A stretch of 64,000 bases of DNA, taken from NCBI RefSeq assembly GCF_022968135.1, contig NZ_JALJRA010000016.1:1-64000 (forward strand), read 5' to 3'. The stretch's first letter is position 1. Every line of letters begins with the position of its first letter. The stretch is from Pseudorhizobium tarimense. Lineage in GTDB: Bacteria; Pseudomonadota; Alphaproteobacteria; Rhizobiales; Rhizobiaceae. This document shows, one piece after another, positions 6,542-15,560 of this stretch. The position numbers and the translations under genes were made by a program. The notes beneath the pieces were generated by a model. That model was not told where the DNA came from. It ran no database searches and saw only the letters and a list, made by a program, of their open reading frames with translations.

Positions 6542-9500
6542 TTGCAGGCCGGCAGAGAGCCGAAGCAAGATTGGCAGGTTCATGTGAACGTTATTGACTA
6601 CCGAGGTAAAAAATCCTCTAGGTCCCTTGCCGCCGAGGAACAGGCACAGGCCGGAAAGCTGCCGGCGGGTTTGGTCGCAACCAGACTGGCCGCCTCACTA
6701 CAAGATTCAAGACGATCACAGTGCTATGTGGCCCTGAGCGAGGGGGAGGCGGATGAAATTGCTGGAGCCGTCGGCGCCCTTTTCCCCGACATCCAGATTC
6801 TTGTCTTGCCGCCTTGGGACTGCCTCCCCTACGATCGTGTACGACCCTCGCGCCACTCGATGGGCAGACGAATGGATGCGTTGCGGATCTGGAATGGACG
6901 CAGCGGCGCGCCGAAACTGCTGGTAACCTGTCTGGAAGCGATGCTTCAGCATGTTCCGCCGGCGACCATCATGGAAGGCAGCAAGTTCGATCTGGCGGTG
7001 GGCCAGGTATTCGACCGCGGCGCATTCTCCCGCTTCCTCCAGCAGACCGGCTATGTCGAAGAAGGCGTTGCCGACGATCCCGGCGAGGTGGTGGTTCGCG
7101 AGGGTGTGATCGACATCTACCCCGCGGGTGCGCCGGGACCGATGCGGATCGTTCTGTCGAAGGACGACCACATCCTTGAACTGAGGGGTTTTGACCGTGT
7201 GTCGCAACGCACCGAGAGCTTTCTGCAAGAGGTAACATTGGGACCCGCGTCCGAAGCAATCCAAAGCGAAAATGAAGGTGAAGGCGCGGCTGCAAGACCC
7301 GGTACGATGGAAAGCTTGCTCTGCCGCCTTTACCCTGACATGCCAACCGTCTTCGATATTCTCGGCGATGCCACTGTACATTTCGCTCCCGGCGCCAATG
7401 AACGGGTCAGCCGTTACTTCGACATCATCCAAGATGCCCGGCAGGCTAGGGAAAGTTTCGCCGAGACGGAGCATGCGCCGCCTCGTTCATTCTACCTCAA
7501 CCCCGCGGAATGGGAACGCTACGCCAGCAGCGCACCGAAGGGTGCACTGGACCTCGAAGAAGGCGGTGTCCTGCCGGCGGAAGTGCTTGATACGGGTCCA
7601 CGAAAGGCGTTGATCAGGTTCGTTCAGGACGGCATCGAGCAGGGAAGGAAAATCGTCATCGCTGGGACAGGCAAAGGTCCCGCAGCCCTTTGTCGCCGCT
7701 TGACCAAGGCTACCGCGACAGCAGTCCGCTCCGTCGACACCTGGGAAGCGGTCTTGGCGAACAACGTCGCAAACCTGTTAAAACTCGAATGTGATCTAGA
7801 ACAGGGGTTCGTCGACGCAAAGAGCGATATCGTGGTCGTCGCCGCGGCCGGCGAAGCAAGTGCCGTCGGCGATCCTTCGGTCCATCTGACCGAGCCGGAG
7901 CTGAGAATCGGCGATGTCGTCGTTCACGAGGACCATGGCATCGGCGTTCTCAGAGACTTGGAGCGAATCGAGATCGAGGGTGTGTCTCACGACGCTGCTC
8001 GGCTCGAATATCGTGATGGCGGTTCGATCCTCGTGACGATGGAGGAGTTCGGCAAATTGTGGCGTTATGGCTCCGAAGCCGAGGCCGTAACGCTGGATCG
8101 GCTTCACACGGAGGCGTGGCAGAAGAAGCGCGAGAAGATTGCGAAAGACATTCAATCTACCGCGCGTCATCTCGCGACCATTGCAAAGCAGAGGCAGGCA
8201 TCGCAGGCAGAGAAGTTTGTGCCGCAGCGGGCTGCGTTCTCCGCCTTTACAAGACGCTTCCCCTACGCCGAAACCCGTGATCAGACAGAGGCGATCCGAG
8301 TCGTCCTTTCCGATCTGGCATCCGGGCAACCGATGAACCGCCTCATCTGCGGGGATGTCGGCTTCGGCAAGACGGAAATCGCCTTGCGGGCAGCGGCCGC
8401 CGTGGCGCTTGCCGGCGGACAAGTGGTCGTCATCGTGCCGACCACCGTGCTGGCGCGTCAGCACTTCGCCACGTTCCAGCATCGCTTCGCAGGAACGGGC
8501 GTCGCGGTCGGGATGTTGTCGCGGCTCGTCAAGCAGAGCGAGGCGAAGCAGGTGAAGGCGGCGCTGGCAGAGGGAGAGCTCGGCGTGGTTGTTGCGACCC
8601 AGGCGATCCTCGCGAAGGATGTCCAATTTGCCCATCTCGGGCTGCTGATCGTGGATGAGGAGCACCGGTTTGGACTGAAGGAGAAGCGTGCGATGAGCGC
8701 GTTGGCGCCGGCGCTGCACACGCTTGCAATGTCGGCAACGCCGATCCCCCGGACGCTGCAGTCAGCCATGATCGGTGTTCAGGAGGTCAGCCTTCTGACG
8801 ACGCCCCCCGTCAAACGACGGCCGGTCCGCACCGCGCTTGCCGCGTTTGACAGCGCCTCTCTCCGCACCGCGCTGATGCGCGAAGTGCGCCGCGGCGGAC
8901 AGAGCTTTGTCGTGGTGCCGCGCGTTGAGGACATGGAAGAGGTCGAGGCGGTGCTGCATAAGATCGTGCCGGAGCTTTTGGTCAAGGTCGCCCACGGGAA
9001 GATGCCGGCGGCGGCCATCGATGAAGCAGTGGTTAGCTTTGCAGCAGGCGACGGCGATGTCCTGCTCGCGACGAACATCATCGAAAACGGTCTGGACGTG
9101 CCGCGAGCCAATACCATGTTCGTCTGGCGAGCCGAGCTCTTTGGCCTTGCGCAGCTTCATCAGTTGCGTGGACGGGTGGGGCGCGCAGGAGTGCAGGGCC
9201 TGGCAACTTTCTTTACGCAGGAGGGCGCCGAGCTGACGGAAGAAACATGCTCTCGGCTGTCGACCCTCGTCGAGAACGATCGCCTGGGCTCGGGCCTTGC
9301 CATCAGCCTACGCGATCTTGATCTGCGCGGCGGAGGCGATCTCGCCGGCGAAGACCAAGCCGGTCATATCAAAGCAATCGGGGTTGGCCTGTACCAGAAG
9401 TTGCTTGCAAACGCGGTCGCGAAAACAGGCAAACAAGCCGGACGCGCGTCGCCGCGCGCGACCCTCCATCTGGGTGTGGCGGGCACGATACCGGCTGACT

Positions 9501-9877
9501 ATATCTCGGATCCGGCTGTGAGGCTCAATCTCTATGCCAGACTGTTGCGTGCGTCTGCGCCGAACGAGCTGGACGACCTCCAAGAAGAATTCGAAGACCG
9601 GTTCGGCGAGCCGCCGCAGGAAGTACTACTTTTGTTGCGGACGACCCGGCTGCAGATCGAGGCCGCACGGCTTGGCTTTGCCAAGCTTGAGGCCGGGCCA
9701 AAGGCACTTGCGGTGACGCTGACACAAAAGGCACCGGCGAAGGTTGTCGCTGCATTGACGAGAAAAGAAGGAGCGGCTCGGCGGGAGAACCGGCTGATAT
9801 TTGAGGCGGAGAGCCTGGCTGGCGAGGCCCAGCTTCAATTTTTCGAACGGGTAATATCAACGGCGCAACAGCCTTAA
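6542..9877 (+). CDS. Mfd-like transcription-repair coupling helicase (paralogue type)
   Basis: A 1111-residue superfamily 2 helicase with the full Mfd layout. It has a UvrB-like N-terminal module with PPWDCLPYDRVRPS near residue 95, a CarD-like RNA-polymerase-interacting domain about 456-555 (GDVVVHEDHGIGVLRDLE), Walker A GDVGFGKTE near 603, a DEEH box near 704, SATPIPRTLQ, the TNIIENGLDVP motif, motif VI QLHQLRGRVGRAG near 870, and the C-terminal TRCF domain. Canonical Mfd displaces stalled RNA polymerase and recruits UvrA. The N-terminal sequence differs from the usual housekeeping Mfd opening, so I read this as a second, accessory copy. The frame starts at a TTG; a GTG at 6584 behind GGCAGG is an alternative. 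It is intact among pseudogenes. Confidence 0.85.
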   Translation: MQAGREPKQDWQVHVNVIDYRGKKSSRSLAAEEQAQAGKLPAGLVATRLAASLQDSRRSQCYVALSEGEADEIAGAVGALFPDIQILVLPPWDCLPYDRVRPSRHSMGRRMDALRIWNGRSGAPKLLVTCLEAMLQHVPPATIMEGSKFDLAVGQVFDRGAFSRFLQQTGYVEEGVADDPGEVVVREGVIDIYPAGAPGPMRIVLSKDDHILELRGFDRVSQRTESFLQEVTLGPASEAIQSENEGEGAAARPGTMESLLCRLYPDMPTVFDILGDATVHFAPGANERVSRYFDIIQDARQARESFAETEHAPPRSFYLNPAEWERYASSAPKGALDLEEGGVLPAEVLDTGPRKALIRFVQDGIEQGRKIVIAGTGKGPAALCRRLTKATATAVRSVDTWEAVLANNVANLLKLECDLEQGFVDAKSDIVVVAAAGEASAVGDPSVHLTEPELRIGDVVVHEDHGIGVLRDLERIEIEGVSHDAARLEYRDGGSILVTMEEFGKLWRYGSEAEAVTLDRLHTEAWQKKREKIAKDIQSTARHLATIAKQRQASQAEKFVPQRAAFSAFTRRFPYAETRDQTEAIRVVLSDLASGQPMNRLICGDVGFGKTEIALRAAAAVALAGGQVVVIVPTTVLARQHFATFQHRFAGTGVAVGMLSRLVKQSEAKQVKAALAEGELGVVVATQAILAKDVQFAHLGLLIVDEEHRFGLKEKRAMSALAPALHTLAMSATPIPRTLQSAMIGVQEVSLLTTPPVKRRPVRTALAAFDSASLRTALMREVRRGGQSFVVVPRVEDMEEVEAVLHKIVPELLVKVAHGKMPAAAIDEAVVSFAAGDGDVLLATNIIENGLDVPRANTMFVWRAELFGLAQLHQLRGRVGRAGVQGLATFFTQEGAELTEETCSRLSTLVENDRLGSGLAISLRDLDLRGGGDLAGEDQAGHIKAIGVGLYQKLLANAVAKTGKQAGRASPRATLHLGVAGTIPADYISDPAVRLNLYARLLRASAPNELDDLQEEFEDRFGEPPQEVLLLLRTTRLQIEAARLGFAKLEAGPKALAVTLTQKAPAKVVAALTRKEGAARRENRLIFEAESLAGEAQLQFFERVISTAQQP

Positions 9878-9956
9878 CGACGAACCAGACGCCGCTGCCG
9901 CCGTCATTCCAGGTCAAATGCTCACCTGGCGCCTTTAGCAATCAGCGTCTCCCACA

Positions 9957-10323
9957 ACCTTGGCCGAAGTCGAGGCATGGTGCCGGGAAGCCACGGGGAA
10001 GCGGCCTGTCGACTTCCGGCAGACCAACTGCGAAGAGCGGCTGATCGACTGGGTGCATGAGGCGATCGACGAGGGGCGGGGATCACGATTAATCCGCAGC
10101 CTTCACCTTCACCTTCACCTCGCTGGCGCTTCTGGATGCCCTCAAGATGTTCAAGGGCCCGATCATCGATTTCCACATCAGCAACGTTCACCGCCGCGAA
10201 CCGATCTACCACCGCTCGTACATCTCAATGACGGCGACCACGGTCATGGCCGGTCCGGGAGCGGAGGGGTATCCGCTGGCGGTGCGGGCCTGTGCCGTAG
10301 AATTCCGGCTCGCGCTTGCCTAG
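9957..10323 (+). pseudogene. aroQ: Type II 3-dehydroquinate dehydratase, inverted body fragment
   Basis: This encodes residues from about 26 onward of AroQ: TLAEVEAWCREATGKRPVDF, RQTNCEERLIDWVHEAIDEG, then after single-base losses near 10078 and 10102 AFTFTFTSLALLDALKMF, GPIIDFHISNVHRREPIYH and [17 protein letters not shown] hexamer is present three times, giving one more FT pair than usual. The active-site FHISNVHRRE block is intact. The missing N-terminus (with PNLNRLG) lies directly adjacent at 10291-10365 on the opposite strand, so this piece has been inverted in place. The codons after AVRA are antisense to the N-terminal piece. Non-functional. Confidence 0.9.
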
Positions 10324-10365
10324 ACGGTTCAGGTTCGGGCCGTTGAGGACGTAGATCGGTTTCAT
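10291..10365 (-). pseudogene. aroQ: Type II 3-dehydroquinate dehydratase, first 25 codons
   Basis: Read on the minus strand from the ATG at 10365, these 25 codons give [20 protein letters not shown] followed by EFYGT, the unmistakable AroQ N-terminus with the catalytic-loop residues. The next codon should begin TLAEVEAW, but that sequence lies inverted at 9957. The start is four bases below the end of the upstream TRAP permease remnant (10369), which suggests an original dctM-aroQ operon. On the minus strand, 9956 to 9922 reads WETLIAKGAR-stop, possibly the original C-terminal tail left in its native orientation (inference). Confidence 0.85.
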
Positions 10366-10368
10366 GCG

Positions 10369-11370
10369 TTATCCCTGGTATCCAAACAGTCGCGGCAGCC
10401 ACAGGACGGCGTCCGGCACAAAGGTGATGAAGGCGAGGCAGACCACCATCCAGAACAGGAAGGGTGCAGCATCGACGATGATGTTCTTGATCGGAGCACC
10501 GGAGATCTTAGCAACGATGAACAGCAGCAGGCCGTAGGGCGGGGTCACCAGACCCAGCATGATGTTGACCACGACGACGACGCCGAAGTGCACGAGATCG
10601 ATGCCGAGCGCCTGGGCCGTCGGAATGAAGACCGGCACGATGATGAGCAGGATTGCCGTGCCTTCAAGCAGGCAGCCAAGCACGAGGAGGATCACGTTGA
10701 CCAGTATCAGGAAGCCCGTAGGGCTGAGGTCCCACCCGGTCAGCATCACCCGAAGGCTGTCGGGGATATTCTCGATCGTCACGACCTAGTTGAAGACTAA
10801 GGCGGCGGCGATGGCGGCCGCTCGGTTGGTGTGGTGATGCCGGAATAGATGCAGCCGAGCAGGACGACGGGCATCATCAGCGCCGGGAAGGCGCAAACCG
10901 TGATGCGCGGGATGTCGCGCAACGGAACAGGTTCCTCCACCGAGTAATTCCGGCGCCGCGCAGTGATCACCACCTGCACCATCTGCAGGCCCGCCATCAG
11001 CAGGCCGGACACCATTCCGGCGAGGAACAGGTAGCCGTCCGAAGCGTCGGAGACGAGGGAATCATCGGGATCGACGGCGGAATGATCCGGCCAACCACCG
11101 CCGTCAGAGCGGCGGCGAAGCTTGGCGTGTATCGCCCTTCAAGCGTCATCATGGTCTGCATCATCTTGCCACTGCCGGCGGCATCGGCGATCGCCGAGCC
11201 GGACATGCCGGCAAAGATGATGCTCTGAACGATGTCGACCTGCGCCAGCCGCCGCGGAACCGCCCCACCAGTCCGTTGCAAAAGCTCAGGAGCCGTTCGG
11301 TCATGGAGCCGACGTTCATGAATTCAGCCGCCAAGATGATGAGCGGCACGGCTAGAATGACGACGCGCAT
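10369..11370 (-). pseudogene. TRAP transporter large permease (DctM type), truncated and frameshifted
   Basis: The large membrane subunit of a TRAP-type dicarboxylate-like importer survives in four frames. They are [20 protein letters not shown] near 11340, then [20 protein letters not shown], then ALMMPVVLLGCIYSGITTPTE, then the intact last 137 codons with GLVTPPYGLLLFI. Frameshifts lie near 11250, 11010-11060 and 10790. About 65 N-terminal residues are missing because the gene is cut at about 11370, where an unrelated ABC-transporter fragment begins. No DctP or DctQ gene is present. The position directly upstream of the aroQ N-terminus suggests transport of a shikimate/quinate-type substrate, which is inference only. 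Confidence 0.85.
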
Positions 11371-11371
11371 T

Positions 11372-11665
11372 TACAATCGCCATCCTAATTTGTTCTCCTG
11401 CCGCCAGCGCATCGGCACCGCCCGGACGCTCGCCCTCAAGCCGAAGCTGATCGTGTGCGATGAGAGCGTCGCAGCGCTGGACCTCTCCATCCAGGCGAAG
11501 GTCCTCGACCTTCGCCTGGATCTGCAGAAAGAGAGCGGCGTCACCTACGTCTTCATCACTCATGGCATGGCGGTGGTGGAAAACATCTCCGACTGCGTGA
11601 CGGTGATGTATCTCGGACAGATCGTCGAGATGGGGACGCGCGCGCCAGCATTCGGCGCCCCGTAG
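11372..11665 (+). pseudogene. Oligopeptide ABC transporter ATPase, C-terminal fragment
   Basis: A fragment of a DppF/OppF-type ATP-binding protein: [37 protein letters not shown] (Walker B and D-loop), [20 protein letters not shown] (switch His) and [10 protein letters not shown]. The Walker A half is missing. The ABC signature that should read SGGQRQRIG is reduced to SCRQRIG, and the Walker B Glu-Pro reads Glu-Ser. The fragment is fused at about 11371 to antisense sequence of the TRAP permease. It ends at a TAG after AFGAP. A non-functional rearrangement product. Confidence 0.8.
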
Positions 11666-11797
11666 CACGCTAATACGAAGCTCCCGCTTCCAGCCGTGCC
11701 GCTACCGGGTCCGCCCCGCGAACGTGGAACCAGCTATTGCACGCCGGAACGATGAGCCCTCGATCCGTGTTCTCCCGAAACAACAGGAGGACCCGTC

Positions 11798-14561: not shown

Positions 14562-15560
14562 CTATCTTATCTGCTCGAAAGTGCACTGCGACGGGCGCTT
14601 GTCCGGACGCCAGCGCACCAATTTTGTTCCGTGGCGGAAGCGGTGGCCGGTGACTTGGTCGTAACGGACCTCGACGACCAGTTCCGGTTTAAGCGGCTGC
14701 CACTCACTGGTTCGGCCCGTGCTCCAGCGGCTGGGTCCGCCGGGCGCCTTGCCCGTGAATCCCGGAGGCTCGCCAAGTGCCCCTAGCCGCTTCGTCAATT
14801 CCGGCCGTTCCTCCTCGGTGATCGTCGAGGTGAAGCCGACGTGATCCAGCTTGCCGTCCTCGGTATAAAGACCGAGCAGCAGCGAACCCACGAGGTCGGA
14901 CTTGCTCTGGTAACGGAAACCGCCCACCACGCAGTCCGCGGTGCGCACGCGCTTGACCTTGATCATTGCCCGCTCACCGGGGACATAGGCGCCGTCGCGC
15001 CGCTTGCAGACCACACCGTCCAGATCGCCGGCGCCGGAGGTTAAGAGCCACTCCTGGGCGGTCTCCATGTCGCTGGTGGCGGGCGAAAGTGACGGACGCT
15101 GATTGACAGGCAGGGAAACAGCGAACGTCTCCAGCGACCGGCGTCTCTCTTCCAACGGTGCGTCCAGAAGTGCTTGTCCATCCGGCGCAACGAGCAGGTC
15201 GAAGAGGATGATTTTCGCCGGGGTTTCCTTAGCGAGCTTCTTGATCCTGCTCTCCGCGGGATGGAGGCGCATCTGCAGAGCCTCGAAGGACAGACGTCCG
15301 CCGATCTCGATCACCAGTTCCCCATCGACGACGAATCGGTCGACGGAAAGTTCGCGCAGGTACTCGACCACCTCCGGGAAATAGCGCGTGAGAGGTTTGC
15401 CGGACTTGGCCCGCAGATCGATGGAAGAAGAGCCTCGCTTGAAGGCCAGGCACCGAAAACCATCCCACTTCGGCTCGTATTGCCACCCCTCCCCCTCCGG
15501 CAGGGTATCGGCCAGGCGCGCTTCCATTGGCTCAAGTTCGACGGACAGGCCGAAATCCAC
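14562..15560 (-). CDS. ligC: ATP-dependent DNA ligase, LigC type
   Basis: A 332-residue stand-alone ATP-dependent DNA ligase. The adenylation motif EPKWDGFR places the catalytic lysine at residue 31. Further nucleotidyltransferase motifs are VVDGELVI, ILFDLLV, LDGVVCKRRDGAYVPG and MIKVKR, followed by an OB-fold domain ending in VEVRYDQVTGHRFRHGTKLV. Enzymes of this type seal nicks in bacterial repair, often in nonhomologous end joining or base-excision-like processes. No Ku or primase gene is present here. The length is normal for LigC, without the polymerase and nuclease domains of LigD. Confidence 0.85.
   Translation of the reverse strand: MDFGLSVELEPMEARLADTLPEGEGWQYEPKWDGFRCLAFKRGSSSIDLRAKSGKPLTRYFPEVVEYLRELSVDRFVVDGELVIEIGGRLSFEALQMRLHPAESRIKKLAKETPAKIILFDLLVAPDGQALLDAPLEERRRSLETFAVSLPVNQRPSLSPATSDMETAQEWLLTSGAGDLDGVVCKRRDGAYVPGERAMIKVKRVRTADCVVGGFRYQSKSDLVGSLLLGLYTEDGKLDHVGFTSTITEEERPELTKRLGALGEPPGFTGKAPGGPSRWSTGRTSEWQPLKPELVVEVRYDQVTGHRFRHGTKLVRWRPDKRPSQCTFEQIR

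Follow-up and report, generated by a model that had tools for sequence, protein, structure and literature searches.

The type II dehydroquinase gene (aroQ) of the window, i.e., the whole 64,000-nt stretch of the Pseudorhizobium tarimense genome analyzed here, lies in three pieces on two strands, and it is confirmed that, in the assembly, ~339 bp of its interior are inverted in place. The best explanation, to which we give a fair measure of confidence, is that the locus is a pseudogene of a probably catabolic aroQ, the interior of which was flipped, with non-homologous end joining by Ku/LigD as the most likely cause. The reading that one gene body was turned round in place is supported, because the pieces do not overlap, their order is minus–plus–minus, and the gene is collinear in relatives.

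The head of aroQ (minus strand, 10292–10365; codons 1–24 and part of codon 25) retains its original orientation and is collinear with dctM, as in relatives. The sequence-only reading had placed codons 1–25 on the minus strand from 10365 to 10291, and this is borne out: translation of that stretch gives a type II dehydroquinase N-terminus of 25 residues, and a family profile search aligns the head with positions 2–23 of DHquinase_II (PF01220; E 5.5e-8). The body (plus strand, 9953–10291; approximately codons 26–136) is inverted in place; it has lost single nucleotides at two sites and gained 6 nt, and it matches the same profile at positions 25–64 (nucleotides 9957–10085; E 0.0011, under the curated cut-off) and 75–137 (nucleotides 10093–10320; E 1.1e-18). 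The three matches do not overlap, and they place the pieces in the family over most of the 138 profile positions. The tail (minus strand, 9922–9952) reads ETLIAKGAR-stop in the original orientation; it is assigned by its likeness to the C-terminus of an intact relative, the profile search having covered the head and body pieces. Thus, the minus-strand stretch 9954–9922 encodes WETLIAKGAR-stop and the intact relative (L043, of genome G009) ends in LETLIAKKAR-stop, a likeness that upholds the earlier suggestion of an original C-terminal tail.

The plus-strand location of the body had been read correctly at the outset, but its proposed boundaries (9957 and about 10290) had not, as the joints resolve to about 9952/9953 (tail to flipped body) and 10291/10292 (flipped body to head). 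Both positions were set by eye against relatives, to within a few nucleotides, and have a 1-nt ambiguity in common; the C run adjoining the second joint is one C shorter than that of most relatives. No single open frame could make the dehydroquinase, given that the pieces lie on two strands and contain further frame-changing indels. A plus-strand ORF (9960–10346) starts as the aroQ body and then leaves the aroQ frame. A minus-strand ORF (9922–10212) was considered as a new protein and rejected, having no Pfam match.

A search of 57 genomes of the genus, the window's own included, gave matches at E 1e-20 or better in 15, i.e., in 14 others. In 13 of these 14, aroQ is collinear beside dctM, and the matches to the head and body of the window gene, opposite in strand when set against the window, adjoin, with 0 to about 25 nt between them. 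The 14th genome (G032) has a 73% match to the body only, which reads as a different, intact paralog (L023). Against G009, the body matches at 81% over 9952–10290 (E 2e-86), on the strand opposite to that of the head and dctM, which match at 84% over 10292–10797 (E 4e-158). Eighteen aroQ loci of relatives were read: all 17 full-length genes are uninterrupted, and the 18th (L055) is truncated. The 17 include two from plasmid records (L010 and L011, the latter encoding a protein identical to that of L048), one from outside the genus (L017), and the paralog L023. Of 250 plasmid records that match, not one has 80% of the query at a single site. Because the sampled relatives are collinear and no plasmid record reaches that coverage, the inversion is, as judged from these comparisons, derived, and it has so far been found only in this genome. 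The exact 20-base junction has no match in the searched genome contigs, a set that may omit records near the window's genome, such that this result says little.

Alignment to intact aroQ–dctM loci of other Rhizobiaceae had been proposed as a check, and it finds the relatives collinear and the window body inverted. Two aroQ copies at this place had been named as the counter-case; the 13 same-genus relatives with the aroQ–dctM pair hold one collinear gene there. Two separate copies are rejected, given the absence of overlap among the pieces and the one gene that relatives have beside dctM. Elsewhere, contig C40 of the relative G064 (L055/L084) carries a second, truncated aroQ, the flanks of which do not match the window.

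The inversion stands within a more extensive decay that also takes in dctM. Compared with G064, single bases are missing from the aroQ body at two sites and 6 nt are added, in agreement with the two single-base losses and the extra hexamer unit of the earlier reading; a (CCTTCA)3.5 array lies at 10100–10120. Of the invariant columns, the window pieces cover 101 and have private replacements at six (P76S, which adjoins a frameshift, was left uncounted), vs. 0–3 private changes in 13 of 14 intact aroQ proteins; each intact protein was compared with the 13 others and the window with all 14, leaving out the paralogs L017 and L023, the truncated L055, and L011 (identical to L048). The count suggests relaxed selection on aroQ but alone is no proof of it, because L054 is intact and has 8 private changes, three of which are insertion columns.

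The neighboring gene, dctM, encoding a TRAP large permease, survives as a remnant (minus strand, 10369–11362) that is missing its N-terminal part, with homology ending at 11362; a full-length dctM is present in L010. The remnant has a Pfam DctM match on 10372–10782, lacks 117 nt at about 10797–10800 (from match coordinates against G009 and G064), and has further losses of 1, 7, 9, and 1 nt vs. G064. Joined to the cut dctM is a remnant of a dipeptide-type ABC-transporter ATP-binding gene (plus strand, 11364–11725), which has a 76% match to L082 (14584–14214), where the matching gene is ABC-type, and a 78% match to L085 over 11372–11643. There is no Pfam match at E 0.01 for 11375–11662.

In G009, the corresponding run of genes encodes shikimate dehydrogenase, a QuiC-like dehydratase, DctP, DctQ, DctM, and, last, AroQ; DctQ was assigned by the gene order of the annotated S. 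medicae locus, and the QuiC match is under the NCBI cut-off (677 vs. 1200 bits). At E 1e-5, a search of the window's genome, which is a draft of 50 contigs, finds nothing for the QuiC-like protein; as a control, this protein has matches in 4/4 relatives. The DctP query finds only proteins of 24–33% identity in the window's genome, and another, complete dehydroquinase gene is present on contig C47 of the same genome. From the broken dctM, the QuiC-like protein without a match, the low-identity DctP matches, and the surviving dehydroquinase on C47, the locus is therefore most likely what remains of a lost quinate/shikimate operon, with the substrate read from the neighboring genes in relatives. 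The window aroQ is a pseudogene of an accessory, probably catabolic gene that probably once served quinate breakdown. It resembles the Rhizobiaceae aroQ genes beside TRAP transporter genes in sequence family and in its dctM neighbor, but differs in being broken.

Other features border the fragment. A second Mfd-like protein of 1111 aa is encoded at 6542–9877; its helicase part shares 46% identity with an Mfd-like gene on contig C33, and it is under the NCBI mfd cut-off (751 vs. 800 bits). The blocks flanking the aroQ–dctM fragment (9899–11372) lie on separate contigs in the draft of G064, with the Mfd-like gene on C11, and the ABC gene and an NCS2 permease on C37. Larger joins may bound the aroQ–dctM fragment too.

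At the joints of the flipped segment, the net loss is at most one nucleotide, namely the C missing from the C run, which may be a later, separate event. The longest inverted match at the joints, within ±10 nt, is CACA (4 nt), a length reached by 67% of 1000 random pairs at the same spacing, and so not above chance. With 2 nt of slack, the longest in-register match is also 4 nt; of 2000 random pairs, 22% do at least as well. A search for inverted repeats found no pair that flanks the segment: in each pair, one or both arms lie apart from the joints, as is the case for a 17-nt inverted pair (9892–9908/10227–10243). Nothing at the joints points to homologous or site-specific recombination, although a route driven by 4-nt microhomology may have operated.

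Bacterial inversions typically have their breakpoints in oppositely oriented repeats, according to PMC2483231, and the aroQ inversion differs from these in having no such repeats. To this extent, the sequence-only reading was right to call a clean inversion without a mobile element or long inverted repeat unusual. However, the surprise is smaller than it had claimed, because the gene lies in a broken operon fragment, and because joints that lose ~1 nt resemble rhizobial end joining at single breaks.

For the preferred explanation by end joining, the aroQ interior would have been cut at two places and the ~339 bp rejoined in reverse; rejoining by Ku/LigD would need no homology and would have cost about one nucleotide. 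Selection on the operon would by then have ceased, so that the inversion was retained, as were the small indels nearby, the loss of 117 nt, and the dctM cut. The genome has the requisite proteins, in that the host encodes Ku and ATP-dependent ligase: there are two Ku matches on contig C2, and seven ATP-dependent ligase-domain matches in the genome, one of which lies between the Ku genes (C2:198949–199458). The remaining six ligase matches include one with an internal stop and one in the window (14562–15560). The latter gene, on the minus strand, encodes a stand-alone ATP-dependent DNA ligase (NCBIfam PRK08224.1, over the cut-off).

The joints, with few nucleotides lost and homology not above chance, have the form of end-joining scars. 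According to PMC10932983, end joining gives deletions of 1–6 nt in 32 of 34 events in R. etli and of 1–4 nt in 37 of 40 events in S. meliloti, and one R. etli set has no microhomology. The aroQ joints are alike in the loss of ~1 nt, in the absence of homology above chance, and in a host with Ku and ligase. The published scars differ in being deletions or insertions at single breaks, whereas in aroQ the piece between two breaks appears to have been reversed; the word "inversion" is absent from that paper, which offers no precedent for a flipped fragment. From the scars alone we infer end joining as the maker of the inversion, and the order of events is likewise inferred. Against end joining, two breaks 339 bp apart combined with recapture of the fragment would be an unlikely coincidence, and CACA is common to both joints in register, although 22% of random pairs match as far.

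The main rival is replication-linked strand switching or microhomology-mediated break-induced replication, by which a copying strand would have jumped to the opposite strand and back, leaving ~339 bp reversed; we regard this as possible but doubtful. The relevant comparison is with human–chimpanzee microinversions, all of which are flanked by inverted repeats of 3–75 nt and are under 33 bp in size, as given in PMC8755829. These are similar to the aroQ case in the clean replacement of a segment by its reverse complement, and the 4-nt CACA is within range of the 3-nt inverted repeats at some of them. Yet the aroQ segment is ~339 bp, and its 4-nt match does not exceed chance in either the ±10-nt or the in-register comparison; furthermore, judging by eye against relatives, an event mediated by CACA would need extra indels at both joints. 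The same source discusses template switching, favors microhomology-mediated break-induced replication for microinversions, and, where the breaks are about 20 nt apart, rejects end joining of two breaks; this objection would be weaker at 339 bp. In our judgement, two breaks with reversed rejoining fit the joints best.

The remaining explanations fare worse. An assembly or sequencing artefact is improbable: the assembly is a draft of 50 contigs and frameshifts can be sequencing errors, but there is no repeat at the joints to mislead an assembler, the genome has no further close copy (the C47 aroQ matches only short stretches, at 77–79%), and the replacements at invariant positions together with the broken dctM argue for real decay. 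Equally improbable is a two-step rearrangement, via a lost mobile element or recombination between operon copies. The position of the fragment between blocks that are on other contigs in the G064 draft would allow that larger joins also happened, but the pieces fit end to end without foreign bases, and no mobile element was found among ten ORFs tested.

Invertons have inverted repeats at both ends and a recombinase, are reversible, and occur in both orientations in a population; intragenic invertons are reportedly the subject of work by Chanin and colleagues in 2024. A reversible, recombinase-driven switch of this type shares with aroQ the outward form of a clean inversion inside a reading frame, but is rejected as highly improbable, since the repeats at the two ends are 4 nt and at chance level, the frameshifted body would give no working gene on flipping back, the ten neighboring ORFs tested contain no recombinase domain (one match, ExoD), and the inversion is not seen in relatives.

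The locus is a clean case of a familiar type of lesion in a gene already dead, and it looks like a scar of DNA repair and not a new system. A partial literature search found no described repeat-free inversion inside a bacterial gene, and such cases may exist elsewhere. For annotation, gene finders can misread genes of this kind, because no one strand carries all the pieces. The aroQ locus is a well-resolved in-place inversion in a bacterial gene, with no repeats above chance, in a Ku-bearing genome. We tentatively propose that Ku-bearing bacteria may gain repeat-free in-gene inversions by reverse recapture of a fragment of a few hundred bp, of which the aroQ locus would be a natural example, and that these are possibly an overlooked class of lesion in rhizobial pseudogenes. 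Taken alone, the locus is a fragment of a dead gene; if an excess of such cases were found in Ku-bearing genomes over other genomes, inversions of this kind would be a mutational outcome of bacterial end joining.
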